The position numbers were made by a program, and so were the translations under genes. Under the pieces are notes generated by a model. It ran no database searches. It was not told the origin of the DNA and saw nothing but the letters and a program-made list of their open reading frames with translations. Shown here one piece after another: positions 4,601 to 21,106 of a DNA stretch of 64,000 nucleotides; position 1 is the stretch's first letter; each line of letters opens with the position of its first letter. The stretch comes from an uncultured Lachnospiraceae bacterium (lineage in GTDB: Bacteria > Bacillota > Clostridia > Lachnospirales > Lachnospiraceae). The stretch covers positions 1-64,000 of the forward strand of contig CAMUYQ010000004.1 in the NCBI GenBank assembly GCA_947165025.1, written 5' to 3'.

Positions 4601-4680
4601 TCCGTTTGTGCATATATTAAACCGTGAGAGATAATAAAGTATAGTATGAAGAGATTAAGCAATTGAAAAAATAGGAACTC

Positions 4681-5265: not shown

Positions 5266-5338
5266 CATTAGAATCAAAACACTTGACCTTTTGCGTATCA
5301 ATGATAATATTTAATTACATTTCAAAAACCTTTTTTTG

Positions 5339-5368: not shown

Positions 5369-5415
5369 TATTGCGTTAGATGTGATTTGCTACGAAATAT
5401 ACTGCACTGACATCT

Positions 5416-5444
5416 TTGACTATACAAAATCAAAATGATAAAAT
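5416..5444 (+). promoter_or_regulatory. Predicted sigma-A promoter of the long glycan operon
   Basis: TTGACT at 5416-5421 and TAAAAT at 5439-5444 are separated by 17 bases, a near-consensus housekeeping promoter. It lies about 75 bases before the KdsC-like gene. From there plus-strand genes run to 33.1 kb with small gaps or overlaps and no convincing terminator, so this could drive a very long transcript. Internal promoters cannot be excluded, for example in the gaps at 20541-20605 and 22138-22248. Confidence 0.6.
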
Positions 5445-5520
5445 ACTATCTTGAATGGAACTGAATGGGAAAAATTCTTGTTTGGGCGAGAGAAAATAGA
5501 TTTCATTATTTGAAATAGCA

Positions 5521-5997
5521 TTGAACAAAACTATGAAGACTGAAATAAAAATGGTCATATTTGATATTGACGGTGTTTTAACGGATGGAAATGTGTATGT
5601 TGATGAAACCGGGAAAGAGTCGAAAATTTACAGCTTGACTGAGATAGATGCACTTAATGACATTAAGAGGACAGGCTTTCTGATCGGTGCGATTACAGGA
5701 GAGGAAACGGCAATCGTCGATGTATTTGAAAAACGAATCGGTTGGGATGCATTTATCAGAGGATGCAAGAATAAGAAACAGGCAATAGAGGACATTTGTA
5801 GTATTTGGGGTCTTGAAAGTAAACAGATATGTTACATCGGCGACGGAAAATATGATGTTGAAGCTATATCATATGCCGGAATTGGTGTATGCCCGCAAAA
5901 TGCCGTTAATAAAGCCAAAGAAGCTGCCGATGTGGTGTTGAGTGGAAGAGGCGGCGAGAGTTGTATAAATGAGTTATATGAGTTGCTCACAGAATAG
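5521..5997 (+). CDS. KdsC-like HAD phosphatase
   Basis: A 158-residue cap-less HAD phosphatase of the KdsC type, which removes phosphate from 3-deoxy-octulosonate 8-phosphate or a nonulosonate 9-phosphate. The catalytic DIDGVLTDG motif sits near residue 15, the Thr motif in GAITGEET and the metal-binding YIGDGKYDVEAI near residue 103. A TTG at 5521 and an ATG at 5533 are both possible starts. It is the first gene after the predicted promoter and directly precedes a NeuB-like synthase. The pair therefore probably makes and dephosphorylates a 3-deoxy-2-keto sugar acid, although the exact substrate is unknown. Confidence 0.75.
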   Translation: MNKTMKTEIKMVIFDIDGVLTDGNVYVDETGKESKIYSLTEIDALNDIKRTGFLIGAITGEETAIVDVFEKRIGWDAFIRGCKNKKQAIEDICSIWGLESKQICYIGDGKYDVEAISYAGIGVCPQNAVNKAKEAADVVLSGRGGESCINELYELLTE

Positions 5998-6051
5998 AAA
6001 CGCTTTTAACAATGAAGTCAAAATAAAAACACAGAGAAGATTGGAGATATT

Positions 6052-6885
6052 ATGAGAGATCAGGTATTTATTACAGCAGAGATAGGTATAAACCACAACG
6101 GGAGCCTTGATATAGCCAAGATGCTTATTGATTGGGCGGCAAGGTGTGGTTGTGACGCCGTGAAATTTCAGAAGAGAACAGTCGAGAAGGTGTACTCAAA
6201 GGAAGAACTGGATAAATACCGTGAAAGCCCATGGGGAACAACCAACCGTGAACAGAAGATGGGACTTGAGTTTGGAAAGAAAGAATACGATGCGATAGAT
6301 AAGTACTGTAAGAAAAAGAAGATTGAGTGGTACGCTTCTGCCTGGGATCCTGAATCGCAGGAGTTTCTAAGAAAGTATGATTTGAAATACAACAAAATTG
6401 CTTCCGCTCTGCTTACCAATGATGAAATACTGAATATGGTTGCAGATGAGGGAAAATATACTTTCATAGGAACAGGTATGAGTACTCTTGATGAGATTGA
6501 TCATGCTGTTGACGTTTTCCGTAAGAAAAAATGTCCCTTTGAGATAATGCATTGCAACAGTACATATCCGATGGAAAAGAATGATGCGAATTTGAGCCTT
6601 ATCCCGGTACTAAGGGAAAGATATGGATGTAAGGTTGGGTATTCGGGCCATGAAACGGGTAGGACAGTATCATATGCCGCGGCATGCATAGGTGCCTCAT
6701 CAATTGAAAGACATATTACACTGGACAGGGCAATGTATGGATCTGATCAGGCAGCATCATTGTCTGTACAGGAGTTGGAACGACTGGTTATTGATATTCG
6801 TAATATTCCTATTATTATGGGTGAAGGTGTTAAGGTCGTCACGGATGGTGAGCTTGCAATCAGGAAAAAACTGAGGGGTTATTGA
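6052..6885 (+). CDS. NeuB-family sugar acid synthase lacking the SAF domain
   Basis: Condenses phosphoenolpyruvate with an aldose to form a 2-keto-3-deoxy sugar acid, by family. The TIM barrel shows ITAEIGINHNGSLDIAKML at the start, CDAVKFQKRT, EIMHCNSTYPM, VGYSGHETGR and IERHITLDRAMYGSD, all NeuB hallmarks (metal and PEP ligands). At 277 residues it lacks the C-terminal antifreeze-like SAF domain that makes sialic, pseudaminic and legionaminic acid synthases about 335-350 residues long. In dimeric NeuB that domain helps close the partner active site, so this belongs to a different subgroup. No CMP-sugar activating enzyme (NeuA type) is seen in the window. The ATG at 6052 follows a plausible GGAG-type site. 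Confidence 0.8.
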   Translation: MRDQVFITAEIGINHNGSLDIAKMLIDWAARCGCDAVKFQKRTVEKVYSKEELDKYRESPWGTTNREQKMGLEFGKKEYDAIDKYCKKKKIEWYASAWDPESQEFLRKYDLKYNKIASALLTNDEILNMVADEGKYTFIGTGMSTLDEIDHAVDVFRKKKCPFEIMHCNSTYPMEKNDANLSLIPVLRERYGCKVGYSGHETGRTVSYAAACIGASSIERHITLDRAMYGSDQAASLSVQELERLVIDIRNIPIIMGEGVKVVTDGELAIRKKLRGY

Positions 6886-6886
6886 T

Positions 6887-7720
6887 ATGAATTCAATTAT
6901 GGATCGTTTTCTGATTCGGGATAGGGTATGTGTCATTACCGGTGGAGCCGGACTTCTCGGATATAAACATGCGGAAGCGGTTTTGGCCGGTGAGGGTATT
7001 CCGGTACTGCTGGATATTTCCGATACAGCTTTGGAAAGAGCAAAATCGAATCTTCTAAACGATTATGATGGAACCGTGGAAACATATAAAGTTGATATTA
7101 CCAATCGGGACCAGCTTCAATCAGTTTGTGATGCTTTGGTAAATAAGTATGGAATGGTAAATGCGCTTGTCAACAATGCGGCCAATAATCCCAAAATGGA
7201 AGATGAATCGAAGAATTTAGGAAACATCCGATTTGATAATTTCCCGTTGGGTATTTGGATGGATGATATGGCCGTTGGATTAACGGGCGCTTTTTTATGT
7301 TCTCAAGTGTTTGGAACTCAGATGGAAAAACAGAGGTCAGGAGTTATTCTGAATATTTCGTCCGATCTCGGGGTTATTGCTCCGGATCAGAGAATATATA
7401 GAAAAGAAGGAGTGAAGGAAGAAGATCAGACAATAAAGCCTGTCACTTATTCTGTAATAAAGCATGGACTCCTTGGACTAACAAAGTACTTGGCAACATA
7501 TTGGGCTGATAAGAATATTCGTGTTAATGCAATCTGTCCTGGCGGAGTTGAAAATGGACAACCGGAAGATTTCAAAGAAAAGCTTACAAATCTAATTCCC
7601 TTGGGGCGAATGGCTGACAAAAACGAGTATCAGTGCAGTGTTCTATATCTGTTGTCGGATGCAAGCAGTTATATGACCGGTAGTACCGTGATAATCGATG
7701 GAGGGAGGACGTGCTGGTAG
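6887..7720 (+). CDS. Short-chain dehydrogenase/reductase
   Basis: A classical SDR of 277 residues. NAD(P)-binding is shown by VITGGAGLLG near residue 16 and by NNAA; the catalytic Ser lies in LNISSDLG and the catalytic pair is Tyr-x3-Lys in TYSVIKHG. NAICPGGVENG and the C-terminal TGSTVIIDGG complete the family pattern. A 30-residue insertion between the Ser and the Tyr (around APDQRIYRKEG) is longer than usual. It starts one base after the NeuB-like gene, so it is probably part of the same sugar-acid pathway, oxidising or reducing a precursor. Campylobacter flagellin-glycan loci have a comparable SDR (PtmA); that link is only an analogy. Confidence 0.75.
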   Translation: MNSIMDRFLIRDRVCVITGGAGLLGYKHAEAVLAGEGIPVLLDISDTALERAKSNLLNDYDGTVETYKVDITNRDQLQSVCDALVNKYGMVNALVNNAANNPKMEDESKNLGNIRFDNFPLGIWMDDMAVGLTGAFLCSQVFGTQMEKQRSGVILNISSDLGVIAPDQRIYRKEGVKEEDQTIKPVTYSVIKHGLLGLTKYLATYWADKNIRVNAICPGGVENGQPEDFKEKLTNLIPLGRMADKNEYQCSVLYLLSDASSYMTGSTVIIDGGRTCW

Positions 7721-7726
7721 AAGCAC

Positions 7727-8587
7727 GTGCGCATTATGATAAAACTTGGAATCATGCAGGGCAGATTAACACCTCAAAATGGAAGGGGAATTCAATTTTT
7801 TCCGTTCGATAATTGGGAGAATGAGTTTTTAGCAGGTCGTGATATAGGTCTTGACGAGATAGAGTGGATTTTTGACTTTCCTGACTATACCAATAATCCG
7901 CTTTGGAGTATCGAAGGATGCGATAAGATCAATAAAATGATCGAAGAAACAGATGTATGTATTAGATCTGTCTGCTTCGATTATTTTATGAGAAGACCGT
8001 TTTTTAAGTATTCTGAAGAAGAACAAAATACAATCCTGAATGAAAACAGAATTATAGTTCGAACTGTGTTGGATCGTATGGTATTGATACGGGCAAAGCT
8101 ACTCGAAATACCGTTTGTTGATGACTCCTCTGTAAAAAATTCGATAGAGGAGGATAACATTTCGGACTTTATAAAATGGTGCTGCGCTGAAGCGGATAGT
8201 CGAAATCTTGAGATTGGGATTGAATCGGATTATCCGCCCGAGAAATTTGCTCCTTTTTTGCGGAAGATTGGTTGTACTAATCTTAACGCTAATTATGACA
8301 GTGGAAACAGTTCCGGGCTCGGATATGATCACGTGGCTGAACTTAGAAATCTAAATGAACTTGTTGCAAATGTTCATATAAAGGACAGGGTTAAAGGAAA
8401 CGGAACCGTTAAGCTGGGAACGGGGAGTGCTAACTTTGAAGATGTTTTCAGTACCCTAAAGGAAATTGGTTATGACAAAAGCATTATCCTTCAGGCAGCC
8501 AGAACCGAAGACGGAACAGAGTCTGGCAACATATTGGATCAACTTGAGTTTGTCAAAAGCTATTTGGAAAGGTATGGTATCGAATGA
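7727..8587 (+). CDS. Sugar phosphate isomerase/epimerase (xylose isomerase-like TIM barrel)
   Basis: This 286-residue protein fits the AP-endonuclease/xylose isomerase-like TIM-barrel family: KLGIMQGRL at the start, IGIESD (metal-binding Glu), NANYDSGNSSG (Asp/Asn pair), VANVHIKDRV (His-x-Lys-Asp) and a late Glu-containing strand. Such enzymes isomerise or epimerise sugars or act on keto-inositols. A GTG at 7727 or ATG at 7736 may start it; neither has an ideal ribosome binding site. It overlaps the next gene by four bases, which indicates translational coupling. With Gfo/Idh/MocA and TPP enzymes downstream, it probably builds an unusual sugar. Confidence 0.7.
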   Translation: MRIMIKLGIMQGRLTPQNGRGIQFFPFDNWENEFLAGRDIGLDEIEWIFDFPDYTNNPLWSIEGCDKINKMIEETDVCIRSVCFDYFMRRPFFKYSEEEQNTILNENRIIVRTVLDRMVLIRAKLLEIPFVDDSSVKNSIEEDNISDFIKWCCAEADSRNLEIGIESDYPPEKFAPFLRKIGCTNLNANYDSGNSSGLGYDHVAELRNLNELVANVHIKDRVKGNGTVKLGTGSANFEDVFSTLKEIGYDKSIILQAARTEDGTESGNILDQLEFVKSYLERYGIE

Positions 8588-9615
8588 AGTACTTGTTTGT
8601 TGGATTGGGAGGCGTTGGGCAGCGCCATCTTCGAAACCTAACAAAACTTATATCTGCTGATGATGAGATTCTTGCATATCGTGTCAGAAAAGAACAATCT
8701 GTTATTAGCGATAAGTTACAGATACTTGACGGAGAAAGGCTTGAAGACAAGTACAAGATCAGGTCGTTTGATAGTTTGGCGGAAGCTTTGGATGCCGAAC
8801 CTGACGCTGTGTTTATTTGTAATCCCAGCAGTATGCATATGGAGATCATGCTGGAAACGGCTGAGCGGGGGATTCCTTTTTTTGTTGAAAAACCACTTTC
8901 ACATAATCTAGACGGTATGGATCAGCTGGTACGTTTGTGTAGGAAAAACAATGTGATTTCGTATGTTGGATACCAGCAAAGGAATAACCCGTGTATTGTA
9001 AAGGCTAAAAGTGTTATTCAAGAGGGAGTATTGGGAGATATTCTCAGTATTAATGCAGAGATTGGTGAGCGGGTAACAGAGTGGCATAAATACGAAGACT
9101 ATCGCAGAATGTATGCGTGCAGAAGTGACATGGGTGGAGGTGTAGTGTTAAGCCAGATTCATGAACTGGATTATCTTTACTGGTTTTTGGGTATGCCGAC
9201 CTCAGTATATGCAATTGGTGGGAAGTACAGTGATCTTGAAATTGATGTGGAAGATACTGTTGATATCCTGCTTAAGCATGAACTGAACGGTCGAAAGATA
9301 AATGTGCACATTCATGAAGACTATGTTCAGAATCCGCCGTCCAGAACATGTAAAGTTGTAGGAACTAAAGGCAAATTGGAATTTGATCTTATCAATCTGG
9401 ATTTTAGACAATATGATATATCAGACGAATTGGTTGAGAACGAACACTTTGATTTCGAGCGAAATTCGATGTTTGAGAAAGAGCTGGTTGATTTTTTGGA
9501 TTGTGTAAAAAACAATAAGCAGTCGCAGATTTCTGTGGAAGAAGGACTTAAGAGTCTTAAAATTGCTTTGGCGATTAAGGAATCACTTGAAAAGGATATA
9601 ATTGTTAAGCTGTAA
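8584..9615 (+). CDS. Gfo/Idh/MocA-family oxidoreductase
   Basis: A 343-residue NAD(P)-dependent sugar dehydrogenase. The N-terminal Rossmann fold begins KYLFVGLGGVGQRHLRNL, followed by ADAVFICNPSSMH-like sequence and the hallmark FFVEKPLSH (Glu-Lys-Pro) near residue 100. The second domain contains GGGVVLSQIHELDYLYWFLG, where the His-Glu/Asp pair lines the active site. It overlaps the TIM-barrel gene by ATGA and is 15 bases before the TPP enzyme. It probably oxidises a hydroxyl of a nucleotide-linked or phosphorylated sugar; the substrate is not determined by sequence. Confidence 0.8.
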   Translation: MKYLFVGLGGVGQRHLRNLTKLISADDEILAYRVRKEQSVISDKLQILDGERLEDKYKIRSFDSLAEALDAEPDAVFICNPSSMHMEIMLETAERGIPFFVEKPLSHNLDGMDQLVRLCRKNNVISYVGYQQRNNPCIVKAKSVIQEGVLGDILSINAEIGERVTEWHKYEDYRRMYACRSDMGGGVVLSQIHELDYLYWFLGMPTSVYAIGGKYSDLEIDVEDTVDILLKHELNGRKINVHIHEDYVQNPPSRTCKVVGTKGKLEFDLINLDFRQYDISDELVENEHFDFERNSMFEKELVDFLDCVKNNKQSQISVEEGLKSLKIALAIKESLEKDIIVKL

Positions 9616-9630
9616 GTAAGAAGGTGTAAA

Positions 9631-11400
9631 TTGAAATTATCGGATTATGTTTGGAAATATATAGAAAGCCTTGATGTGAAACATGTGTTTATGTTTCCGG
9701 GGGGAGGTGCTATGCATCTCGTCGACTCGTTGGGCAGAAACAACAAGATTGAGTATGTGACGCTTCTTCACGAGCAGGCATGTGCTATGGCGGCTGAAAC
9801 TTATTCGAGGATCAGTAATAATTTGGGTGTGGCACTGGTTACGACTGGCCCGGGTGGGACAAATGCAATTACCGGAGTTGCTGCTGCCTGGCTGGAGTCA
9901 ACGCCGATGATAGTTATCTCTGGACAAGCTAAAAGAGCTGATCTTAAAGGTGATTCTGGAGTTCGTCAACGCGGAAACCAGGAAATAGGAATAGTTGATA
10001 TTGTATCCTCCATTACGAAGTATGCTGTCACAGTAATGGAACCTAATGATATTAAATATCACTTGGATAGGGCCCTCTTTGAATGCCGAAGTGGTCGCCC
10101 TGGTCCGGTATGGATTGATATACCCTTGGATGTTCAGGCGGCTCAGATCAGCGAGAAAGATTTAAAATCATATGACTTAAATAAACCGGATATCTCGGAG
10201 CCTGAGGAAAAAGATGTCTTGCGTGTTATAGAACTCCTTAATAAATCCAAGTGTCCTGTTATTATTGCTGGACAGGGTATTGAAAGAAATAATGGGAAAG
10301 AATCGTTTAGAAAACTTGTTGAGACTCTAAGGATTCCGGTCTTGACCAGTTGGATAGCTGTAGAATTGATGGAATTTGATTGTGAGTACAATCTCGGCAA
10401 GCCCGGTATGGTCGCTCCCAGATATTCAAACTACACTCTTCAGGACTCAGATTTTGTTTTAGCTATAGGGACCAGATTGGATCCGGCTATGATAGGCTAT
10501 AATGAATCGGATCTTGCACCGTTGGCAAAGAAAGTTGTTGTGGACATAGATCAGGCAGAACTTGATAAGTTTTCGTTTGACATTGATACAAAAATATGCT
10601 CTGATGCAACACTATTCATTAACGCATTGCTAGACCATATAAATGGGTACCAATATGACGAAGATAAAGCAAAGTGGCTGGAGTCATGTAGAAAACTGAA
10701 GGAAAAATATCCCATTGTAATTGATGATTTCAAGGATTCGGATGAAAGAGTTAATCCGTACTTCTTCATTGATACACTATCAGATTGTTTGGCAGGGGAT
10801 GATGTAATCATTCCCGGTAGTTCCGGTGCGGGAATTGATGTTTTTTGGTTGTGTATCAAGAATAAGAAAGATCAGAGACTGTTGGCAACAGGATCTCTTG
10901 GTTCGATGGGATATGGAATACCGGCAGCTATAGGTGCATGTCTTGCGTCCGGAAAACGCACTATTTGTGTTGAGGGTGATGGAAGCCTCCAGTTAAACAT
11001 TCAGGAATTTGCAAGTATAAAGGGTATGAATCTTCCTTTAAAGATTTTCGTAAATGGTAATAATGGCTATTTGTCAATAATGAATATGCAACGCAGTCAT
11101 TTTGAGGGGAATTTCGTTGGTGCAAATGCATCAAGTCATTTGTTTATCCCGGATATTATATCTGTTGCCGAAGCATATGGGTTTAAAACATTCGAGATAA
11201 AGGATCATCAAAATGCGAAAAAAACAATAAAAGATGTGCTGTCGTCGGATGGTCCTGCGCTATGCTATGTGCATATGAGAACGGATATTCCAATTCAGCC
11301 TAGAGTAATGTCTCATGTAACTGAGAATGGTTCAATGAAATCAGGAACACTGAAGGAGTTATGGCCTCCTATTGAGGATAGTAACGAATATGTGGATTGA
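9631..11400 (+). CDS. Thiamine diphosphate-dependent enzyme, acetolactate synthase-like
   Basis: A 589-residue three-domain ThDP enzyme. The N-terminal domain shows FMFPGGGAMHLVD, the catalytic Glu in LLHEQACAMAAE near residue 50, and TTGPGGTNAITG. The C-terminal domain shows the GDGSLQLN ... NGNNGYLSI magnesium/ThDP motif near residue 450. Translation starts at TTG 9631 behind AAGGTG. A catalytic IlvB in an amino-acid operon would be expected beside IlvN or other ilv genes, and none are present. Within glycan loci such enzymes add a two-carbon ketol unit, as YerE does for the branched sugar yersiniose; CDP-dideoxyhexose genes (rfbF, rfbH) do occur 33-49 kb away. That function is a suggestion only. 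It overlaps the next gene by 11 bases. Confidence 0.7.
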   Translation: MKLSDYVWKYIESLDVKHVFMFPGGGAMHLVDSLGRNNKIEYVTLLHEQACAMAAETYSRISNNLGVALVTTGPGGTNAITGVAAAWLESTPMIVISGQAKRADLKGDSGVRQRGNQEIGIVDIVSSITKYAVTVMEPNDIKYHLDRALFECRSGRPGPVWIDIPLDVQAAQISEKDLKSYDLNKPDISEPEEKDVLRVIELLNKSKCPVIIAGQGIERNNGKESFRKLVETLRIPVLTSWIAVELMEFDCEYNLGKPGMVAPRYSNYTLQDSDFVLAIGTRLDPAMIGYNESDLAPLAKKVVVDIDQAELDKFSFDIDTKICSDATLFINALLDHINGYQYDEDKAKWLESCRKLKEKYPIVIDDFKDSDERVNPYFFIDTLSDCLAGDDVIIPGSSGAGIDVFWLCIKNKKDQRLLATGSLGSMGYGIPAAIGACLASGKRTICVEGDGSLQLNIQEFASIKGMNLPLKIFVNGNNGYLSIMNMQRSHFEGNFVGANASSHLFIPDIISVAEAYGFKTFEIKDHQNAKKTIKDVLSSDGPALCYVHMRTDIPIQPRVMSHVTENGSMKSGTLKELWPPIEDSNEYVD

Positions 11401-12508
11401 TGATTATTTACGATTAGATAATAAAATAGGTATATTCCTTAAACACCACGCGGAATCAGGCTTACCTCTGTTTCTATATGGTAATGGAAAGGCAGCGCGC
11501 TTTTTTGTCGACTTTATGAGAGCAAACTTGATTCGGATTGAGGGGATCATTGACGCCAACGCAACAGAGAAGAAAACGGCATATGGGATACCGATTACGA
11601 CACTGGATGAAACGATAAGAAATTACGAACAAGCTGATGTTGTTGTTTCTGCGCCTGCATATGCCGGAGAAATCACTAGATTATTGAATAGCAAGACGAA
11701 CTATTTCGTATTTTCATTTGATCCGCTTTTAGATGTGATACAAAAATGTGACTATTCTCAACGTAGAGAAGTAATTGAAAAGAACAGTTATAGAATTGAA
11801 CGTTTGTATGATAGATTAGCAGATAATCGGTCAAAAAAGACACTAAAATGTGTCGTGGGGGGGGGTATAACATCTGATATTTTAATGTATAAGGATCTAT
11901 CGTATGAGATGCAGTACTTTCCAGATTGTGTAATTGAAAGATTACCCTCTAATGGAACTTATATAGATGTTGGGGCATATGATGGCGATACAGTTGAAGA
12001 AATAATCAAAGCTACAAATGATTCTTTTGGTAGAATAATATGTTTTGAACCCGATCCATATAACTATGTAGCACTTTGTGAAAAGTTCAAAGATGATAAA
12101 AGAATAATTCCAATAAGAAAAGGTGTAGGAAAGAATAAAACGAAGTTGTATGTGGTTAATGAGAGTAATGGTTTAGATGAAGGTGCATATCTGACAAATG
12201 ACGAGACGGAATGTTATGTTGATGTTGTATCGCTTGATGAAGAACTAAAAGATGTAATACCGACATTCATTAAGATGGATATTGAAGGATTGGAAGCTGA
12301 TGCAATAAATGGGGCAAGACGTATTATTTCAGCGTATCACCCGGATTTGGCAATTTCGGTTTATCATAAGTGCGATGATTTATTTGTTATTCCTGAATTA
12401 ATTGATTCAATCTATTCAGGTTATAAATTCTACCTGAGGCATTATTGGGAAACAACGGGAACAGATACAATTCTGTTCGCGCTTAATTGCAACAAGAAGG
12501 AGATATAA
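11390..12508 (+). CDS. FkbM methyltransferase with N-terminal Rossmann-like module and in-frame G9 tract
   Basis: This 372-residue protein has two parts. Residues 25-110 form a Rossmann-like module (LPLFLYGNGKAARFFVDFM, then IEGIIDANATEKK, then ADVVVSAPAYA). Residues about 189-370 form a SAM-dependent FkbM O-methyltransferase (TYIDVGAYDGDTVEEI, CFEPDPYNYVALC, TFIKMDIEGLEADAINGA, ISVYHKCDD, FYLRHYWETTGTDTILFAL). Nine consecutive G at 11857-11865 encode Gly157-Gly159 in the linker and are in frame as sequenced. Gain or loss of one G would truncate the protein before the methyltransferase. ATG 11390 has GAGGA at 11374-11378; the frame also extends to TTG 11372. The gene overlaps the ThDP-enzyme gene by 11 bases. 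Confidence 0.8.
   Translation: MWIDDYLRLDNKIGIFLKHHAESGLPLFLYGNGKAARFFVDFMRANLIRIEGIIDANATEKKTAYGIPITTLDETIRNYEQADVVVSAPAYAGEITRLLNSKTNYFVFSFDPLLDVIQKCDYSQRREVIEKNSYRIERLYDRLADNRSKKTLKCVVGGGITSDILMYKDLSYEMQYFPDCVIERLPSNGTYIDVGAYDGDTVEEIIKATNDSFGRIICFEPDPYNYVALCEKFKDDKRIIPIRKGVGKNKTKLYVVNESNGLDEGAYLTNDETECYVDVVSLDEELKDVIPTFIKMDIEGLEADAINGARRIISAYHPDLAISVYHKCDDLFVIPELIDSIYSGYKFYLRHYWETTGTDTILFALNCNKKEI
11857..11865 (+). repeat. Poly-G tract G9 inside the FkbM gene
   Basis: Nine G in a strongly AT-rich gene, read GTG GGG GGG GGT in the current frame. It joins the Rossmann-like module to the methyltransferase domain. Homopolymeric G tracts of this length are typical slippage sites in phase-variable genes of other bacteria. 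Confidence 0.8.
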
Positions 12509-12512: not shown

Positions 12513-13537
12513 ATGGAAAAACGTGTATTTATCTGGGGGGGGGGTACGCAACTAAAGGCCTCTTAAAAGGAGAATTATCAGGCGTAGAGATATGTGGCGT
12601 CATTGATCGGAATGCAATTTCTATAAGGCAACAAAATATAGAATATGGGCCGTTTTATACACCGAAGGAGGCTTTGGATCACGAATACGATGTTGTATTA
12701 GTAGCGACGGAATACGCCAGCTCGGTTTATAATGATGCGAAATTGATGGGATATGATCTCTCAAAGTTCATTTTTTTATATAACAACTATGTATTTAATG
12801 ATTTAAATTCTGACTACGGTATTGTTGAAGATATACTTCCAGGAGAATTTATTGAATATTTACGTAATCAATTTCATGTAGTTCATGGAATGTCTTATGA
12901 CATTTTGATGAGTAATTCTTTGAACGCAAGTAACATGTTTCATGGCGGGATGTATGACACGGATTATGTTCGTTTGCGAACGTTTGATTTGTGTAGAAAT
13001 GAGATATGCAATTCTGGGATAGAGGGAGCCATCGCGGAATTGGGGGTTTTTCGTGGGGATTTTGCACAATATTTAAACCGTTCGTTTCCTGATAGAAGAC
13101 TGTATTTGTTTGACACATTTGAAGGCTTTGATGATATAGAGCTAAAGGCGGATATTTCATCTGACAATTGTGATGACGCATTTATTGAGCGAAAAGACAG
13201 ATTTTCTATGACCAGTGAAGACATTGTATTGGAGAAAATGGATTATCCGAAAAATGTAGTTATAAAAAAGGGATTATTTCCTGATTCGCTTAATGGACTT
13301 GAAGACACGTTTGCGTTCGTTTCATTGGATGCAGATCTTGAGATTCCGATATATAACGGATTAGAATATTTTTACCCGAGATTGTCTGAAGGTGGATATA
13401 TATTTATTCATGATTTCAACACCCCTTCTCTTACAGGAGCAAAAAAAGCTGTAAATAGATTTGAAAACAAATATGATATTAGATTGATTAAGTGCCCTAT
13501 TCCTGATGTAGAGGGGACTTTGATTGTATCAAAATAA
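12513..13537 (+). pseudogene. TylF/MycF-type methyltransferase, out of frame at a G10 tract (likely phase-off)
   Basis: A strong AAGGAG (12496-12501) precedes ATG 12513, which opens MEKRVFIWGGGT and stops at 12564-12566. Ten G lie at 12535-12544. With 11 or 8 G the frame joins a long open frame that ends at 13537: YATKGLLKGELSGVEICGVIDRN completes a Rossmann-like N-terminal module. It is followed by a TylF-type O-methyltransferase (AIAELGVFRGDFAQYL, LYLFDTFEGFDD, VVIKKGLFPDS, FVSLDADLEIPIYNGLEYF, GGYIFIHDFNTPSLTGAKKAV). Restored with one extra G the product would be 341 residues. The long frame has no other lesion, so the gene looks switched off rather than decayed. Sequencing error in the homopolymer is the main alternative. 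Confidence 0.8.
12535..12544 (+). repeat. Poly-G tract G10 inside the TylF-type gene
   Basis: Ten G, eight codons into the gene, encode the glycine-rich turn of the Rossmann-like motif (WGGG). G10 gives a 17-codon peptide; G8 or G11 gives the full protein. It is 670 bases from the G9 tract of the preceding gene. Confidence 0.85.
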
Positions 13538-13565
13538 GTATAAATTTGTTGAGAGTGGAAGAGTA

Positions 13566-14501
13566 TTGAAAAAAAAAGATATCTTTATGATTTCCAAAGA
13601 AAATAGAATCGTCATTTTTGGGACAGGTGTTATAAGCAGAAAGATATGCAGAGGGCTTAAACAGCAAGGATACAATATTCTTTGCTATCTAACAAGTTTC
13701 TCTGGGGCTTCAAGCACTCTAGACGATATAGATGTGTTTGATTTTCAGGGACTAAAGGAGATTACAAAAGGGAATATTGATGATATTACGGTTGTTGTAT
13801 GTTTGCAAAATGGTATAATTCACTCTCAAAATGCAAAGAAGATACATAGCGAATTGGGTATTGATAGAATTCTTTATTTGCCTAATGGAACTGAGCAAAC
13901 ATATGAGAATCGAGTAACACTACGAAAAAGGTATACGGATTTACTTCACGGGATTTTTGATGAATTAATTGACATTCCGATTTATAGAAGTGATTCAAAC
14001 AGATTTGATTTTATATATAACAATGACAGATATATTTCTTTTTGGTGTCCTAAAGATATTTTATACTATTATGATCATCTTGATGAGAACGGGAGTGTTA
14101 GAGAAAAAGACGAGAAAGAGCTAAAACAAGCGGAATGTCATATTTCATATTTCCAGATGTTTGAGTGGATAGAGAAGGAAGAAGAATATCCAAGGGCATA
14201 TTTTAATGAGAAAAGAGTGTTTCAGTTGATTGATGATGAAGAAGAATATCTAAATGATAGGAAACGATTATTTGAACAGTTTTGTTATGCGTTGAAATAT
14301 GATATGAGTATGTTTGTTGATTCTCCAATAGAGTGCGAACTATGTGAAGTACCTTCGTTAGAGGGCGCTTTTCTTACTTACGGATTGCGAATTGTGGACG
14401 GTATGCATCGAGCGTGTTTTTTGATTCGCAGCGGTTTTGATAAGATACCGGTTCTCATTTCAAAAGATGATTATGATTGTTACATTAATAGGTGTGTTTG
14501 A
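13566..14501 (+). CDS. Rossmann-like module plus C-terminal ParB/sulfiredoxin-like domain, unknown function
   Basis: I do not recognise a named family for the whole protein. Residues about 13-100 repeat the N-terminal pattern of the neighbouring methyltransferases (NRIVIFGTGVISRKICRGL, then ILCYLTSFSG). Instead of a methyltransferase, the C-terminus near residue 277 has GLRIVDGMHRACFLIRSGF followed by KIPVLISKDDY. That resembles the DGxHR ... IPV core of the ParB/sulfiredoxin-like fold, which includes serine kinases of the SbnI type. The frame is open from 13524. TTG 13566 behind GGAAGAG is a likely start and ATG 13587 an alternative. A nine-A run follows the TTG. It ends one base into the start codon of the next gene. 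Confidence 0.55.
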   Translation: MKKKDIFMISKENRIVIFGTGVISRKICRGLKQQGYNILCYLTSFSGASSTLDDIDVFDFQGLKEITKGNIDDITVVVCLQNGIIHSQNAKKIHSELGIDRILYLPNGTEQTYENRVTLRKRYTDLLHGIFDELIDIPIYRSDSNRFDFIYNNDRYISFWCPKDILYYYDHLDENGSVREKDEKELKQAECHISYFQMFEWIEKEEEYPRAYFNEKRVFQLIDDEEEYLNDRKRLFEQFCYALKYDMSMFVDSPIECELCEVPSLEGAFLTYGLRIVDGMHRACFLIRSGFDKIPVLISKDDYDCYINRCV

Positions 14502-16087
14502 TGGGAAAACTTAATATAGAATTTATGAACGAAGATTTGGGCTTCGTTTCCAAAAATGAGGATGATCTTGACGCCAGAGCCCTATATTGTGTGCTGAACC
14601 AAACAGATTTTTCTAAGGATCATGATCTGTTTGAACAGATGTCGGAATATAGGTGTAATCTTTTGGATTGGTATAACTTTGAGGACCATTCGCGAATTTT
14701 AGAAATTGGTGCAGGTTATGGAACGATTAGTCGCATGTTAGCCTTGAAGGCTTCATGTTTGGTTTGCGTTGAAAAAAAAAGAAGTAGAGCCGAAATTATT
14801 AAACAAAGACTTAGAGACAAAGATAATGTAACAGTGTTGAATATGAACTTTAAAGATTATTCGGACGATGAAAAATTTGATTATATTATTGTTCACGATA
14901 TTAGTGGATATTTAAAAAAATACTATGATACTAAGAATGCTCTATATTGCATGCTGTCACAAATGAGAGGAATCCTAGCAAATGGCGGTAAAATCCTATT
15001 TTCGATTGAGAATAGACTGGGATTAAAGTACTTCGCAGGTGCACCGGAAGATTACTCGGGTAAGTTTTTTACAGGATTAAATGGTTTTGATGGGTATACA
15101 AATATAAAAACTTACACTAAAGAAGAGATAACAGATATAGCAAGAAAGAGTGGGTTTGGTTTTATTGAGTTTTATTATCCCTACCCCAATGCAGATTTTC
15201 CGACTGAGATATTTACAGATATGGCATTTCAGACTATTCCGTATGGAAACAGTTCGAAAAGTGTAGGTAATATTGGACTTGAACTATTCGATGAAAGAAG
15301 ACTCTGGAGAACATTAGATGACGAGGGTGTTATTAAAACTTTTGTTAATTCATTTTTGGTAGAAATATCAGATAGCTCGATAAGCCCTTCGATTGTCTAT
15401 CACAGGATAAACGATAGATTGTCATATAATAAGTATGAGGTGACAATTCGAGGAGAGAATTCGGACAGATTTTGTGAAGTGAGAAACGGAAGCCACAAGA
15501 TTAGAAAGAAAATTGAAGGATTAAGGCTTGATAAGTGTATAATAGATGCATTGTTGGAGGGGGATTATGATACGAAATTCGCCAGAAATAAAGTAGGTGA
15601 ACTAATAGATGGTTTGCTGAATAAGGTGGATGTTTTAGTAGAGAGTGCTGAACGAATCTTAAATACCGACAGCATTCTTTTCGATATTAAAGATGTATAT
15701 TATTGTGACGGGGAATACTCAATGGTAAGCCCGTATGTAATAGAGAAAGGGATGTCGGTTAACGAGATAAGAGGCCACTTGATAAGAGAGTTTTATGATA
15801 CAAATATAAAACGATGCTCAGATTACGAAGCGTTGTATGATTTAAAGAGAATAATAGATAAATACGGGTCTTGCATAACAAATTCAAGAGTTTATCATGA
15901 AAACGGCTGTCTTCAAGATTATTATTTGAAGAAATACACAGGGAACATGATATACCCTATGGATGCTCTAAGATATGGTGATCCTATTATAGATTTCATA
16001 GATTCGAATGATGAAAAATTGAAAGAAATCCAATATGAACAAGCAATGCTTGATGAATTGAGGAGAGACGTAACTGATGAAACTTGA
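14501..16087 (+). CDS. Class I SAM methyltransferase with long C-terminal extension
   Basis: A 528-residue protein. Residues about 55-230 are a class I SAM-dependent methyltransferase: LLDWYNFEDHSRILEIGAG with GAGYG as the SAM-binding loop near residue 68, then VCVEKKRSRAEII, FDYIIVHDISG and GGKILFSIENRLGLKYF. The C-terminal half (about 290-528) is unrelated to standard methyltransferases and I cannot assign it. It has scattered polar motifs such as NKYEVTIRGENSDRF and DALRYGDPIIDFID, and might be a second catalytic or acceptor-binding domain. The ATG at 14501 overlaps the upstream stop by one base, and the 3' end overlaps the next gene by 11 bases. It is one of two genes in this block without the shared Rossmann-like module. 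Confidence 0.65.
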   Translation: MGKLNIEFMNEDLGFVSKNEDDLDARALYCVLNQTDFSKDHDLFEQMSEYRCNLLDWYNFEDHSRILEIGAGYGTISRMLALKASCLVCVEKKRSRAEIIKQRLRDKDNVTVLNMNFKDYSDDEKFDYIIVHDISGYLKKYYDTKNALYCMLSQMRGILANGGKILFSIENRLGLKYFAGAPEDYSGKFFTGLNGFDGYTNIKTYTKEEITDIARKSGFGFIEFYYPYPNADFPTEIFTDMAFQTIPYGNSSKSVGNIGLELFDERRLWRTLDDEGVIKTFVNSFLVEISDSSISPSIVYHRINDRLSYNKYEVTIRGENSDRFCEVRNGSHKIRKKIEGLRLDKCIIDALLEGDYDTKFARNKVGELIDGLLNKVDVLVESAERILNTDSILFDIKDVYYCDGEYSMVSPYVIEKGMSVNEIRGHLIREFYDTNIKRCSDYEALYDLKRIIDKYGSCITNSRVYHENGCLQDYYLKKYTGNMIYPMDALRYGDPIIDFIDSNDEKLKEIQYEQAMLDELRRDVTDET

Positions 16088-16937
16088 GAGATCATTAATA
16101 GATCATATAAACATAAAGTTAAAAGAGGTTGAATCGTTATATCATATTAAGGTTTTGTGCTGGTATTGCCGTGGAAGTCTTGGGATGGGAAGGCATCGAA
16201 GAAATAGCGATTTTGACATAGGTTTTATTTTTTTGAATTTATCAAAACAGAATATGATGATACATGCTGTTCATGATATTGTTGGATGGGGTGTTGATGC
16301 CTGGGGATGGAGTATTGAAGATGCTTTGAAATGCATTGAGGATAGTCAGAAGTTGCTATCAAATGGACTTAATGAATTGTCTGTGATTTATCCTAATCGG
16401 GAGTACGCAAGGGTTGAATTTAATTATTTTAACGACATTTATATGTGCGTGGACAATCCAATTTCAGAGGTTGGAGGTATTTTTCGGGAGCGCGTTATTC
16501 CTGTGTTAAAGGACATAATGGAGATACCGTTGATAATTAATTATACGTTGCATTATACAAAAAAAATGATCGTTAATCCATCAAAAGGGTATCTGACTAG
16601 TACCTCAAATTATTTAAAGGGTATATGGTATCTTTTGATATGCAAAAGTTTTATTTGTGGAGATTATATGAAGATTATAGATGTTGTCGAGTTGGCTAGA
16701 ATTCATTGCCCTGCTGAGGTAATTAAGACAATAGAAACACTACGAAATAGATATATGAACGCATTGACAAAGAACTCACAGGAATTGAAGAGCACGATTT
16801 TGGATGATTATACAATTAAGGAATATCAAGAGATTATGAGAATATTTCGTAAGAGCGCTCCTAAACATTCCTTGGAGTATGTTTTGGGTAAGACTAACGA
16901 AATAAGAAAATCACTTGTAGATGTAATAGAGGTATAG
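16077..16937 (+). CDS. Predicted nucleotidyltransferase (polymerase beta superfamily)
   Basis: This 286-residue protein has the nucleotidyltransferase signature near residue 26: WYCRGSLGMGRHRRNSDFD, that is Gly-Ser followed by Ser-Asp-x-Asp, which binds metal and NTP in the DNA polymerase beta-like superfamily (YcgL-type and aminoglycoside nucleotidyltransferases). The rest is mostly helical and unassigned. In this methyltransferase-rich operon it may transfer a nucleotidyl group to a small molecule or activate a phosphorylated decoration, but no substrate can be read. It overlaps the upstream gene by 11 bases and the next gene starts one base after its stop, so expression is coupled. Confidence 0.6.
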   Translation: MKLERSLIDHINIKLKEVESLYHIKVLCWYCRGSLGMGRHRRNSDFDIGFIFLNLSKQNMMIHAVHDIVGWGVDAWGWSIEDALKCIEDSQKLLSNGLNELSVIYPNREYARVEFNYFNDIYMCVDNPISEVGGIFRERVIPVLKDIMEIPLIINYTLHYTKKMIVNPSKGYLTSTSNYLKGIWYLLICKSFICGDYMKIIDVVELARIHCPAEVIKTIETLRNRYMNALTKNSQELKSTILDDYTIKEYQEIMRIFRKSAPKHSLEYVLGKTNEIRKSLVDVIEV

Positions 16938-16938
16938 A

Positions 16939-17967
16939 ATGAATTATAAAGAATTTTTTAAAAAAGCATCAATGATTTATTCCTCCCTCCAGGATGAGCA
17001 GAGCAGATTTATTTGGATAAATCGCCTTGCATGGGAAGTTACAAAAAAAGACGAATATCTTGATGCTATTCTGGATTTTCATTTAAATGATTTCAAAGTA
17101 AAAGTTGGAAGATTGGATACAGATCGTGCAATAATATATGGGGCGGGTGCTGTTTGCGAAACGGTCATTCGGATCTGCGAGAGCAACAACATCTCTGTAA
17201 TATGCATTTGCGATAATAACCCCCAAAAACAAATGGATGGTTTTAAAGGTTTTGAGGTTATTTCCCCTGAAGAGATGATTCAACGTTATCCTCATGAAAC
17301 AGTAATAGTTTCTACATTGAAGCATCGAGATGAAGTGATAGATATACTTGATCCGATATATGGGGATCGGTTAGTTGCATTTGATGATGCTGTTGTTAAA
17401 TACCAGGAAGAACAGTATCTTGAGCGGTCAATAGTTGAAATAAATGATAGAGAGATATTTGTTGATGCAGGTGCGTACGATTTCGAAAATGCACTTTCTT
17501 TTATAAAGAAGTCATCTATGGGTATGGTTTATTCTTTTGAAGCAGATCATCGGAATATAAATAGGTTCAGAAGTAGAATTCCAAGCGAGTATAAAGATGC
17601 AATAAGAATCATGCCATATGGATTGTGGAGTAAAACCGGAGAACTCAATTTTGTTGATGAGGGAAGTGTTGGGTCAAGAATATCTGATGATGAAACGGGT
17701 ACTCGGATTAACGTAGTATCTTTGGATGAGGCAATAAAAAAAGCAACCTTTATAAAAATGGACATCGAAGGAGCTGAGTTAGAAGCATTAAAAGGGAGTA
17801 GAAGTATTATTGAACAGTGTCATCCTAAATTGGCTATATGTATATATCACAAGCCAGAGGATTTAATAGAAATCCCCTGCTTTATTCGTGAAATTCATCC
17901 TGATTATAAACTGTTTGTGCGACATTACTCTTGTACAAGTGCTGAAACGGTTTTGTATGCGATTTAA
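16939..17967 (+). CDS. FkbM methyltransferase with N-terminal Rossmann-like module
   Basis: A 342-residue protein. Residues about 62-140 form the shared nucleotide-binding-like module (RAIIYGAGAVCETVIRICE, then CICDNNPQKQMDG, then ETVIVSTLKHRDEV). Residues about 170-342 are an FkbM methyltransferase (FVDAGAYDFENALSF, YSFEADHRNINRF, TFIKMDIEGAELEALKG, AICIYHKPEDL, LFVRHYSCTSAETVLYAI). The module resembles sugar-binding PglD-type N-termini more than dehydrogenases, because the GxGxxx turn is followed by an Asp-Asn pair. It starts one base after the upstream stop and ends one base before the next start. Confidence 0.8.
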   Translation: MNYKEFFKKASMIYSSLQDEQSRFIWINRLAWEVTKKDEYLDAILDFHLNDFKVKVGRLDTDRAIIYGAGAVCETVIRICESNNISVICICDNNPQKQMDGFKGFEVISPEEMIQRYPHETVIVSTLKHRDEVIDILDPIYGDRLVAFDDAVVKYQEEQYLERSIVEINDREIFVDAGAYDFENALSFIKKSSMGMVYSFEADHRNINRFRSRIPSEYKDAIRIMPYGLWSKTGELNFVDEGSVGSRISDDETGTRINVVSLDEAIKKATFIKMDIEGAELEALKGSRSIIEQCHPKLAICIYHKPEDLIEIPCFIREIHPDYKLFVRHYSCTSAETVLYAI

Positions 17968-17968
17968 T

Positions 17969-19435
17969 ATGGATATCAAAGAGTTTAACCTTTCGGATAA
18001 AAGAATAGTTATTTATGGTGCATCTTCAATCGGAGGAATTGCGTTTAGAGCCTTTTCTGAGATGGGATATAGCATTCAATGCTTCGTTGATAAAAGAGGC
18101 GACAGCATCAAAAGATTTAAGGAACGAGAAGTGTTATCGATCGAAAGAATTGATAAAATAAATCGAGAGTTGCCTGTTTTCGTTGCTGTCAAGAATGTAT
18201 TTGAGCATAGTAAAATTGCAAATGAATTATCAAGTCGGGGATTTCACAGTCTTATTTTTCGGCCTCAGTTAGTAATACAGGGCGGAGGTTCGATAGAAGA
18301 GAAGAGATTGAATGAAGTCTATGATAAGCTGATAAATCGAGAAAACTGGATTGATAATATTCCACAAACCTTTTATTCGAATGTCTGTTCATATTCTGAC
18401 AATGTCATATTAGATAATGGTGATGCTGATAAGGTGACTGTACTTATCCCGCTCGAGTGGATATTTACAGATTCACAAGGAGAAGTATATTCAAAATGGT
18501 CGGACATACCAGCGCTTTGCCTGGTGCCGCATATAAGTTTTTTTCGATGGTTGGATCACCAATCAAATCGCTCGTATGAGATGTATATTGACTATTGTAA
18601 AGATGCGGCAGGCTATTTTGGAGACATTGAAACATCAGACGGCTGGGTTTCGAATGTATTGAAGAATAGATCAGATGTTTACGTGTCTATGAATCGCAGT
18701 TTGGAGGTGGACCCTCTCTTCTTTGTGAGAAATGCAGTTGATGCATCATGGAACAAAAGAGGATATTTTAACATCAGAAGTGGAAAACATAGGATAGCAT
18801 TCTATATTTCAAAGGGAAGAAGATTTATACCTATTAAGGTAACCCGGGATGACTATTGCGAGTTTTCAGAATCATTGGATGTTTTCGAATTGTCTAGCTA
18901 CATAAAGAAAAACCATATTTCTACCGTAAATGGTCCGATAGAGTATCCGGGACTATACCGATTTCCGTGCTTGAACGATTTATTCTGGTTTAGAGTGTTG
19001 GAAGATTTTTTGTATATAGTTGTATCAAATTCTGAGACAAAAGGTATAGAGTTTCGACAGCTCTTACGAAACTACGTTTATTTATTCATAAATGACGATG
19101 GATATCTTAGACGCTGTTTGACGCGATTCGGATTTAATACAATTATACTTTATAGTAGAAGCGGATTGGAACAGAAAATAGATGAATTATCGAGTTGCTT
19201 TAAGTCGAATAATGCGGGAGGCGAGATTAAAGATAAGAATTATAGTTATGCAATTCTTGATTATCAGTTGATTTCTATTGCAAACTGTGAAATATCCCCG
19301 TTGCCCCATTTCGATTATTTGGTGTTAATATCGGATAAAGAAATGGGTGAATACATGGGATATAATGTAATCGAACAAAAAAAATGCATTTGTGATGGGA
19401 AAATTGTATTTTTGAATTATATGATAGGTGAGTAA
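17969..19435 (+). CDS. Rossmann-like module plus ParB/sulfiredoxin-like domain, unknown function
   Basis: This 488-residue protein begins with the shared module (KRIVIYGASSIGGIAFRAF, CFVDKRGDSIKRF, VFVAVKNVFEHSK). The centre is unassigned. Near residue 265 comes YFNIRSGKHRIAFYISKGR followed by FIPIKVTRDDY, which parallels the C-terminus of the 13.6-kb protein and fits a ParB/sulfiredoxin-like fold, with Gly-Lys-His-Arg where the other has Gly-Met-His-Arg. A further 200 residues follow with no recognisable domain. ATG 17969 is preferred over the frame opening at 17888, which would overlap the FkbM gene by 80 bases. Confidence 0.5.
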   Translation: MDIKEFNLSDKRIVIYGASSIGGIAFRAFSEMGYSIQCFVDKRGDSIKRFKEREVLSIERIDKINRELPVFVAVKNVFEHSKIANELSSRGFHSLIFRPQLVIQGGGSIEEKRLNEVYDKLINRENWIDNIPQTFYSNVCSYSDNVILDNGDADKVTVLIPLEWIFTDSQGEVYSKWSDIPALCLVPHISFFRWLDHQSNRSYEMYIDYCKDAAGYFGDIETSDGWVSNVLKNRSDVYVSMNRSLEVDPLFFVRNAVDASWNKRGYFNIRSGKHRIAFYISKGRRFIPIKVTRDDYCEFSESLDVFELSSYIKKNHISTVNGPIEYPGLYRFPCLNDLFWFRVLEDFLYIVVSNSETKGIEFRQLLRNYVYLFINDDGYLRRCLTRFGFNTIILYSRSGLEQKIDELSSCFKSNNAGGEIKDKNYSYAILDYQLISIANCEISPLPHFDYLVLISDKEMGEYMGYNVIEQKKCICDGKIVFLNYMIGE

Positions 19436-19436
19436 T

Positions 19437-20540
19437 ATGAATATTTGTGACTTTAATGCCAATAAGGCTGTAGAGGATTTAAAAAGTAAATATCGCACCC
19501 TACTCGAACGTTTTCATTCGCAGGGTGCATATGTATGGGGAATGGGAAAGCTCGGATGCTTCTGTAAAAATGAATTAATCAATAATGGGTTTACATTTCG
19601 TGGATTTATTGATAGTTCAGTTCGTGATTCAGATCCGGATCATATGATTTTTTCGAGTTCTGTATTGGATAAACCCGATGTGGTTATTCTTGCCACGTTC
19701 TCACACGTTGATATAGAGGAAAGTATAGAATCGACGTGCATGTACATTTATTATGAGGAATTGGCGATTATTGAATCAGAAATGAAAACGTATTATTCTG
19801 GATTTGAGGGTTTATTTTCTGAAATGGAGGAGAATAAAGACAAATATTTCAGAGTTAGAAATTATCTTAGTGACGAAATATCGCAAGATGTGTTCGATAA
19901 TATCCTTAATTACCGCATGACATTGGATACCAGATATTCAAGGATTGCCTTGAGAGAGTCTATAAAACATGGAGTTCAGGATTTTGATGAAGTAGTTTTA
20001 AATCAAATGAACTTGGGGGGATACATTTTTTTTGATGTGGGAGGATTTAACGGAGAGACCACGGAGACATTTGTTTCATTAGTGTCCAATTACAAAAAGA
20101 TTCTATATTTTGAACCAGATAATGAGTTGATAAAACAGAGTAAAGAAAGACTGAAAGATGTTCGAGATATAGATTTTATTCAAGCTGGAGCGGGGGCTCA
20201 AAATGGCAAGCAAAAATACTTAGATAAAGGACAAGGAGCAGGGTGTTTTTCCGAATCCGGAAATCAAGTAATAAACATTGTTGCACTGGATAATTATATT
20301 GATGATTCTAAATCATACGTAAAACTGGACGTTGAGGGAATGGAATATGATGTTCTCTTGGGAATGAAGAATGCAATAAAAAAGTATAGGCCAATAATGG
20401 GCATAAGTGTCTACCATATTCCTGGAGATATTCATCGATTGATAGAACTTGTAATGTCGTGGGTTCCGGAATATCATGTATATTTGCGCCATTATACAAA
20501 AACGTATGCAGACACAATGTGTTATTTTGTTTTGAATTAG
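19437..20540 (+). CDS. FkbM methyltransferase with N-terminal Rossmann-like module
   Basis: A 367-residue protein with the shared module at residues about 28-105 (GAYVWGMGKLGCFCKNELI, then FRGFIDSSVRDSD, then DVVILATFSHVDI). An FkbM methyltransferase occupies about 190-367 (YIFFDVGGFNGETTETF, LYFEPDNELIKQSK, INIVALDNYIDDSK, YVKLDVEGMEYDVLLGMK, GISVYHIPGDI, VYLRHYTKTYADTMCYFVL). ATG 19437 has AGGTGA at 19426-19431; a GTG at 19428 is the upstream alternative. It is the third FkbM protein of the block. The sequences differ enough that each probably methylates a different acceptor. Confidence 0.8.
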   Translation: MNICDFNANKAVEDLKSKYRTLLERFHSQGAYVWGMGKLGCFCKNELINNGFTFRGFIDSSVRDSDPDHMIFSSSVLDKPDVVILATFSHVDIEESIESTCMYIYYEELAIIESEMKTYYSGFEGLFSEMEENKDKYFRVRNYLSDEISQDVFDNILNYRMTLDTRYSRIALRESIKHGVQDFDEVVLNQMNLGGYIFFDVGGFNGETTETFVSLVSNYKKILYFEPDNELIKQSKERLKDVRDIDFIQAGAGAQNGKQKYLDKGQGAGCFSESGNQVINIVALDNYIDDSKSYVKLDVEGMEYDVLLGMKNAIKKYRPIMGISVYHIPGDIHRLIELVMSWVPEYHVYLRHYTKTYADTMCYFVLN

Positions 20541-20605
20541 CAATGAACTTAGAGATACTCCAAGTAGAGCTTCTCCTTGGATTGATATTATGATAAAGGA
20601 CAGCA

Positions 20606-21106
20606 ATGATCGTGTTTTTGGTTTGGGTAGTTGTTTTTATTTTTTTTCTGATATGTTCTATTGTTGCATATATCTTATTTCAGGATCGAATAATCATAAG
20701 AAAACAACGTGATGTTATGGGATACTGGATTGATAATGCAATAAAGGGGCAGAGTATTATAAGATTCTTCGAGGCTAATAGTATAAGAAAAGTGATTATT
20801 GTTGGGTTGGACGAAGTATCCGAGAGACTAGTTAAAGCGCTTATTGTGTCACCTATTGTGATTAAATATGTGGTTGATGACCGGTATTGCGATAAAATGG
20901 AATACTTACCAGGAGTAAAGTTTGTTACAAACAATCTATTTCAAGGCGAAATACAGTGTTTTATGACCGAAAAGTCGAATGCCATTGTTTATTCCTTTAC
21001 AAGCCATAGAAATGAGTTTATTGAAGGACATGATACGAAGTGTTTGGTTGAGTCAATTGAACGAATTGTTGAAATATGCAGTGAGATGGAGCGAAGTTCA
21101 ACATGA
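20606..21106 (+). CDS. Membrane-anchored Rossmann-like protein, unknown function
   Basis: A 166-residue protein with one N-terminal transmembrane helix (residues about 2-25, VFLVWVVVFIFFLICSIVAYI). A cytoplasmic domain follows that begins RKVIIVGLDEVSERLVKAL and YVVDDRYCDK, echoing the nucleotide-binding-like module of its neighbours but without a partner domain. It could tether the modification enzymes to the membrane or act as a regulatory subunit; this is speculation. AAAGGACA before ATG 20606 is a fair ribosome binding site. It overlaps the next gene by ATGA. Confidence 0.45.
   Translation: MIVFLVWVVVFIFFLICSIVAYILFQDRIIIRKQRDVMGYWIDNAIKGQSIIRFFEANSIRKVIIVGLDEVSERLVKALIVSPIVIKYVVDDRYCDKMEYLPGVKFVTNNLFQGEIQCFMTEKSNAIVYSFTSHRNEFIEGHDTKCLVESIERIVEICSEMERSST

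Follow-up and report, generated by a model that had tools for sequence, protein, structure and literature searches.

A G10 tract in a TylF-type methyltransferase gene as a candidate phase-variation switch in a Lachnospiraceae glycan cluster

A run of ten G lies at the 5' end of a TylF-type methyltransferase gene in a 64,000-nucleotide stretch of DNA (the window; contig CAMUYQ010000004.1, forward strand) from an uncultured Lachnospiraceae bacterium. It is best explained, with a probability of about 0.72, as a slipped-strand contingency tract controlling a glycan O-methyltransferase gene, which is OFF in the assembly. Replication slippage would add G residues to the tract or remove them. At two thirds of the tract lengths translation would end within a few codons of the tract, giving a short peptide, and at the remaining third the full enzyme would be made, the G residues then encoding a glycine-rich loop. 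The enzyme would most likely methylate a sugar of the cluster's surface polysaccharide, perhaps the NeuB-made sugar or its partner; this substrate is proposed because of the content of the cluster (a NeuB-type synthase, GT10, GT11, the GDP-mannose dehydratase family, acyltransferases and an ABC transporter). The preceding FkbM-type gene carries a G9 tract of its own and is in frame, which would allow the two modifications to be switched independently of each other. The original prediction of a phase-variable methyltransferase agrees with the tract, the frames, the domain, the intact homologue and the tracts in relatives; from these we infer slippage at the window locus, its reversibility, the substrate and any surface phenotype, the tract length at this locus being taken from one draft assembly, with one genome per species.

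The features of the TylF gene all lie on the + strand. A Shine–Dalgarno-like AAGGAG (12497..12502) overlaps the last codons of the FkbM gene and stands 10 nt upstream of ATG 12513, which is followed, at the end of seven codons (ATG counted) and one T, by the ten G (12535..12544). As assembled, translation from this ATG yields MEKRVFIWGGGTQLKAS and stops at TAA 12564-12566, giving a 5' piece of 17 codons (12513..12566). After the tract a frame in another phase than the ATG (12545..13537) is free of stops from 12545 to 13534 (330 aa), shows no other lesion and closes with TAA 13535-13537. Some tract lengths therefore close the TylF frame and others open it, with the rest of the gene intact. All of this had been read correctly in the original prediction, from the order of ribosome-binding site, start, seven codons and G run to the stop after 17 codons at G10 and the undamaged downstream frame; its arithmetic that G8 or G11 opens the frame is also right.

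The protein of the downstream frame (P0001) matches the TylF methyltransferase domain PF05711 at residues 142-313 (12968..13483, + strand; E = 1.3e-19, 71 bits in the profile search against a curated score of 23). Its nearest solved relatives by sequence are NovP (PDB entry 2wk1), 4cdz and mycinamicin methyltransferases. NovP matches the window protein at E = 1.2e-9, with LDADLE aligned with MDGDLY and HDF aligned with DDY; the aligned Asp residues of these NovP-type motifs presumably have catalytic (metal or SAM-site) roles. A Rossmann-like part had been predicted in addition to the TylF part. The latter is borne out by the profile match, and the N-terminal part may be Rossmann-like to judge from weak matches of homologues (PF22674 in the protein of genome G334 and PglD_N in L008), both below the curated score. 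A possible internal TTG start (12674..12676, + strand) stands in the downstream frame two bases past AAGGAGG (12665-12671), and a restart there could give a methyltransferase lacking part of the N-terminal half even when the gene is OFF; it is disfavoured because the two-base spacing looks too short.

Homologues of the downstream piece were found in 26 of 295 genomes of the order and in 11 of 99 genomes of another set, the window genome being counted in both. The best other match belongs to G334, from a different genus of the same family, with 52% identity over residues 2-330. This homologue (L203) starts MKLFVWGTGF, partly encoded by TGG GGA ACA GGA TTT, without a G run; in the window gene the G10 tract coincides with the codons for this N-terminal glycine-rich (GxG) loop. 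Aligned codons of the two genes agree at 61%, 76% and 41% of positions one, two and three, and 168 of 327 residues are identical; this pattern indicates a protein-coding gene under protein-level constraint.

The G334 gene bears on two rival explanations. A recent one-way pseudogene, formed by a single slip in a chance G run with no selection for switching, is quite unlikely: the patchy occurrence of the gene among the genomes counted above and a genome-wide number of G runs no higher than expected agree with it, and against it stand the 330 codons without further lesion, the second tract in the adjacent gene and the recurrence of tracts in homologous and functionally similar genes. Further disabling lesions in tract-free relatives had been named in advance as evidence against switching; the tract-free relative in G334 is intact, which weakens the reading as a decayed pseudogene. 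Programmed frameshifting would instead involve a -1 shift of the ribosome at the G tract (or slippage by RNA polymerase), so that some full-length enzyme would come from G10 with the DNA unchanged. Such a -1 slip would put the reading back in register with the homologue, which has three residues between W and Y/F, but the G334 homologue has neither tract nor frameshift, so the slip site is not kept, and many tracts of the family lie between promoter boxes, out of reach of ribosomal frameshifting; we regard this explanation as very improbable.

The setting of the gene was compared with that of its G334 relative. The upstream part of the cluster (2958..11400, + strand) contains genes for a GT10 fucosyltransferase family member (2958), SIS (4681), HAD (5521) and NeuB family (6052) proteins, an SDR (6887), a TIM barrel protein (7727), a Gfo/Idh protein (8584) and an acetolactate-synthase-like TPP enzyme (9631), and most of its proteins have relatives in the G334 cluster. 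The downstream part (13524..41712, + strand) includes, among others, FkbM (16939 and 19428), GT2 (22249), a hexapeptide acyltransferase (23213), type 3 acyltransferases (23748 and 35219), an ABC transporter (24772), GT11 (26566), a GT4-like protein (27436), MBOAT (28647), a DegT aminotransferase (31158), the GDP-mannose dehydratase family (37894) and a nucleotidyltransferase (40369). In the G334 cluster the relatives are NeuB (66%), SIS (58%), HAD (47%), a TPP enzyme (45%), a TIM barrel protein (53%), an SDR (67%) and FkbM (29%), together with several further shared relatives in a partly different gene order, and there is no G run of at least 8 in its 19 kb; the shared protein relatives identify the region as the same kind of glycan cluster. 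The TylF domain and the cluster content (NeuB-type synthase, GT10/GT11, acyltransferases, ABC transporter) would fit a surface polysaccharide.

Some details of this region are recorded for their own sake. SIS (4681-5265) and HAD (5521-5997) are separate genes in the window and a single fused gene in G334 (L228, 2920-3984). The GT10 (2958-4094) and GT11 (26566-27429) genes and the GDP-mannose dehydratase and epimerase-type genes (37894-40343) may belong to a fucosylated surface glycan. An ORF of 672 aa on the minus strand (33127-35145), opposite to the cluster, has no Pfam match at E 0.001, and a 330-aa protein with a SocA/Panacea antitoxin-like domain is encoded at 43210-44202, beside the glycan cluster. 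No relatives were found in the viral contigs searched.

The FkbM-type methyltransferase gene (11390..12508, + strand; PF05050, E 2.4e-15; TIGR01444, E 3.2e-20), whose ORF is open also from TTG 11372, is in frame as assembled. Four bases separate its stop from the TylF ATG, and the two genes are therefore probably co-transcribed. Its G9 tract (11857..11865, + strand), overlooked in the original prediction, is in frame and lies in a variable linker, as located from the sequence and a homologue alignment. For this alignment 15 matches were fetched (L158-L172) and 12 were aligned, with L167, L169 and L170 dropped. At the position of the tract the 12 homologues, like two other FkbM proteins of the window, have varying residues, mostly other than Gly, so the protein does not require the G9 run. 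Among the 12, L159 (from genome G064) carries a G14 run of its own, at its codon 31.

The same comparison bears on the explanation that the G10 run is simply coding sequence for the glycine-rich loop (TGG GGG ...) that has drifted into a homopolymer. Since the tract sits on loop codons, a G run would be reached more readily. Against this explanation, GGG accounts for 20% of the Gly codons in 22 ORFs of the window, the middle residue of the loop is Thr in the G334 homologue and the FkbM tract sits in a variable linker; drift of this kind has very little probability as the whole explanation.

The frequency of G runs was evaluated for the window and for the assembly, a single draft of 2,702,416 bp in 20 contigs in which, as in assemblies generally, homopolymer lengths are prone to error. 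The window contains 6 overlapping G8 positions, against a mean of 0.74 in dinucleotide shuffles, of which 1 in 100 reached 6. Geometric extrapolation from the shorter G runs counted in 96.5 kb of the window genome gives 0.004 runs of ten G per 64 kb and, genome-wide, about 6 runs of at least 8, 1.0 of at least 9 and 0.18 of at least 10. Five runs of at least 8 were observed in the whole assembly, three of them of at least 9 and all on the + strand of their contigs; another G8 run of the window lies at 96-103, near the contig start. The claim that long G runs are rare by chance in this DNA thus holds for the 64 kb window and fails for the genome total, and the genome-wide count was rejected as proof since it equals what the extrapolation expects. 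About 670 bp separate two of the three runs of at least 9, each of them in a methyltransferase gene; random placement would give this with a probability of about 0.0016, and this closeness is moderate evidence in favour of switching.

An assembly or sequencing error, by which the real tract would have another length and the gene would simply be intact (it might still be phase-variable), is unlikely. It draws on the draft state of the assembly, with its unreliable homopolymer lengths, on contigs of some relatives that start or finish in G runs and on Bifidobacterium breve, for which the accessible part of a published study gives an annotated tract length that differed from the main population (PMC9187656). 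A wrong length, however, accounts neither for the presence of some ten G at a site where the homologue lacks a run nor for a tract in the adjacent gene.

Tracts were also sought in TylF homologues elsewhere. Of the 32 homologues examined at E < 1e-20 (two more matches were left aside), seven carry runs of G9 to G16 within the coding frame or at its edge, and the positions differ. Four of these tracts are interior (L011, L012, L016 and L206), and three lie at contig edges (L014, L213 and L225) and may be artefacts. In ten genomes, counted with the exclusion of G508, G616 and G675, there were 407 G9 positions in G077, 142 in G064, 71 in G086 and 26 in G052, none in four and 1-2 in two, and the tract-bearing homologues of the genomes counted sit in tract-rich genomes. 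The TylF genes of these ten genomes carry four tracts against an expectation of at most 0.21 (P = 6e-5), in which each G9 position is taken as a separate tract and the gene length as about 0.9 kb; with the contig-edge tract removed there are three against at most 0.21 (P = 0.0013).

Three of these genomes, sampled at the level of the order (G077, G064 and G086), have 71 to 407 overlapping G9 positions each, and interior tracts exist in them (L229-L246). Some contigs end in G runs: one in G064 (C9) nearly ends in a G33 run, and the first hundred bases of one in G077 (C55) are mostly a single run. Part of the tract counts may therefore be a sequencing artefact. A protein search of named relatives returned 24 loci, which match residues ~117-140 to 330 only; from the lineages in the locus titles we take most of them to be Bacteroidetes or a subgroup. 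L069, titled Spirochaetia, has G15 and G14 runs at 2825 and 5765 near its TylF homologue; L067, titled Cytophagales, has a G9 run at 6574 inside the TylF match; and L063 has a G8 run. Similar tracts near TylF homologues thus occur in unrelated lineages (L069 and L067).

Promoter spacers were surveyed in a family sample of 397 genomes from 334 genera, in which the genus of the window genome is represented only by itself and G026. The size of this family suggests Lachnospiraceae; a 16S search of the window genome and of five relatives gave no hit. The pattern TTGAC-N4..12-G8-N0..6-TANNAT gave 68 listed positions, corresponding to 65 distinct sites in 45 of the 397 genomes, and the reversed pattern gave a single site; the forward pattern is absent from the window genome and from G026. 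Because real promoters run in one direction only, the reversed pattern is an imperfect control, and a C8 control with the same boxes was therefore used: in 200 matched genomes G8 gave 31 sites (21 genomes) and C8 one site. The spacer length was 16 to 20 in 26 of the 30 loci fetched, and the G tracts often abut the -10 box (L106-L135). The next gene passed a crude signal-peptide rule in 19 of these 30 loci (no gene was found in L120), compared with 1 of 19 other genes at these loci and 27 of 156 in a background drawn from the window genome and other relatives; the comparison is rough, since the background genes needed 150 aa and a Shine–Dalgarno-like sequence and the next genes only ~60 aa. Two-colour sequencing artefacts put G at read ends and would not produce such strand-specific placement; the placement of the promoter tracts is strand-specific and linked to function. 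The remark that few poly-G contingency genes were known in Clostridia looks wrong for this family.

A second pattern (SD-ATG-5..35-G9) gave 21 positions, or 17 distinct sites, in 13 of the 397 genomes, and 8 positions in 6 genomes for the reversed control. It was rejected as a test, because an excess of 17 over 8 falls short of significance (P = 0.11) and the start codon seems spurious in several matches; read by eye, L141 looks like an ordinary SDR gene, the frame of L140 continues into the sequence ahead of its assumed ATG and L146 resembles a promoter spacer. At eight of the 17 sites the gene is OFF and a longer frame takes over in another phase; these are the window gene, an acyltransferase-3 gene (L142), L147 of G375, three related genes in G266 (of unassigned kind, one partly masked by N) and, in G158, a related pair of signal-peptide-like genes, one of which is truncated where its contig ends. 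The tract is in frame at five sites: L138, the SDR-like L141, two methyltransferase genes (L143 and L140, the latter with an assumed ATG that looks false) and L139, a hexapeptide acyltransferase gene. Four sites are ambiguous (L137, L144, L146 and L150). Gene kinds were taken from Pfam, except that SDR-like is a reading by eye. Related copies within one genome differ in tract length, with G9 and G11 in G158 (similar flanks) and G10, G9 and G9 in G266, at loci other than that of the window.

At least one G9 run is present in 17 of 37 genomes of the genus, the window genome included. For a descriptive listing without a control, 25 regions covering 26 tracts were fetched from the 16 other genomes. 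Promoter-spacer-like tracts have good boxes in L080, L090 and L102 and imperfect ones in L081 and L096; the gene after the tract looks secreted in L081, L090, L096 and L102, and L080 shows no following gene. Tracts also follow the start or signal peptide of secreted-looking proteins, out of frame in L085, L086 and L100 and in frame in L084. Genes for glycan-modifying enzymes also contain tracts: of the four G9 tracts of G004, a member of the genus, two fall within SAM-methyltransferase genes (L098 and L099), and another tract lies in the MBOAT acyltransferase gene L091. Some tracts stand at places without evident sense, for example in L092 and L095. In L087 a G12 run at 5059 (on the G strand) is followed by TAGCGATAACCCCCTTTTATT, 55 bp upstream of a gene (MYRRSLEGWSKH...) that we presume to be sugar-transferase-like, and the two could form a terminator-like hairpin in the leader.

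Slipped-strand phase variation has mostly been described from Gram-negative mucosal pathogens. We consider it reasonably probable that these observations reflect an unrecognized poly-G phasome of a large bacterial family, probably the Clostridia family Lachnospiraceae. On the non-template strand its tracts would be runs of G, hardly ever of C, located either between the -35 and -10 boxes of genes for surface proteins or within surface-protein and glycan-enzyme genes; within the family and the order, TylF- and FkbM-type enzymes would have gained tracts repeatedly and independently, and the window would represent a two-switch methylation module. The mechanism is already known; new, if they hold, would be its spread in the family and the paired methyltransferase tracts. 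If true in dozens of species, clonal populations would be mosaics of surface types, with a bearing on phage susceptibility, immune recognition and strain typing. Switching is testable with existing read data, because the tract positions are now catalogued. Among the literature matches listed (titles and abstract openings, with most subscription papers and all bioRxiv preprints outside), none described phase variation through poly-G tracts, homopolymers or slippage for Lachnospiraceae or other Clostridia, nor for the terms Firmicutes, Butyrivibrio, Blautia, Roseburia and gut bacteria. In the accessible part of a 2025 review of phase variation (PMC11868660) the string 'lachnospir' is absent, and the Clostridioides parts deal with invertible promoters and a signal transducer.

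The TylF, NovP and mycinamicin methyltransferases act in an antibiotic setting. These O-methyltransferases (PF05711; PDB entries 2wk1 and 4x7u) have the catalytic domain in common with the window protein, which differs in its long extra N-terminal part and in its polysaccharide-type cluster. Gardnerella belongs to another phylum. In the accessible part of a genus-level survey it has many homopolymer tracts upstream of or within surface genes, as in the family described here, with colony-to-colony length differences at one tract checked by Sanger sequencing (PMC11287997). The available text on Neisseria fetA and porA places the tract between the -35 and -10 boxes, like the promoter-spacer tracts of the family; control there is transcriptional, whereas the TylF gene of the window would be of the translational type (PMC5320596). 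For the Bifidobacterium breve pilus genes bbr_0113 and bbr_1889, the part of the study at hand describes replication slippage in G tracts, with lengths obtained by deep sequencing (PMC9187656). They resemble the window in the G tract and in two open frames that are joined at some lengths, there in a surface gene of a gut bacterium, and they differ in that the product is a pilin precursor rather than an enzyme and the tract lies between the secretion signal and the body of the protein (PMC9187656). In Campylobacter jejuni, a poly-G tract inside cj1426 makes this gene for a capsule heptose 6-O-methyltransferase phase-variable (PMC8437040). The organism is distant, and switching was measured there and is inferred for the window. 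The two systems have in common a poly-G tract within a methyltransferase gene of a cluster for a surface polysaccharide (a predicted one in the window), several genes of this kind in one cluster and a reading frame on which ON or OFF depends (PMC8437040).
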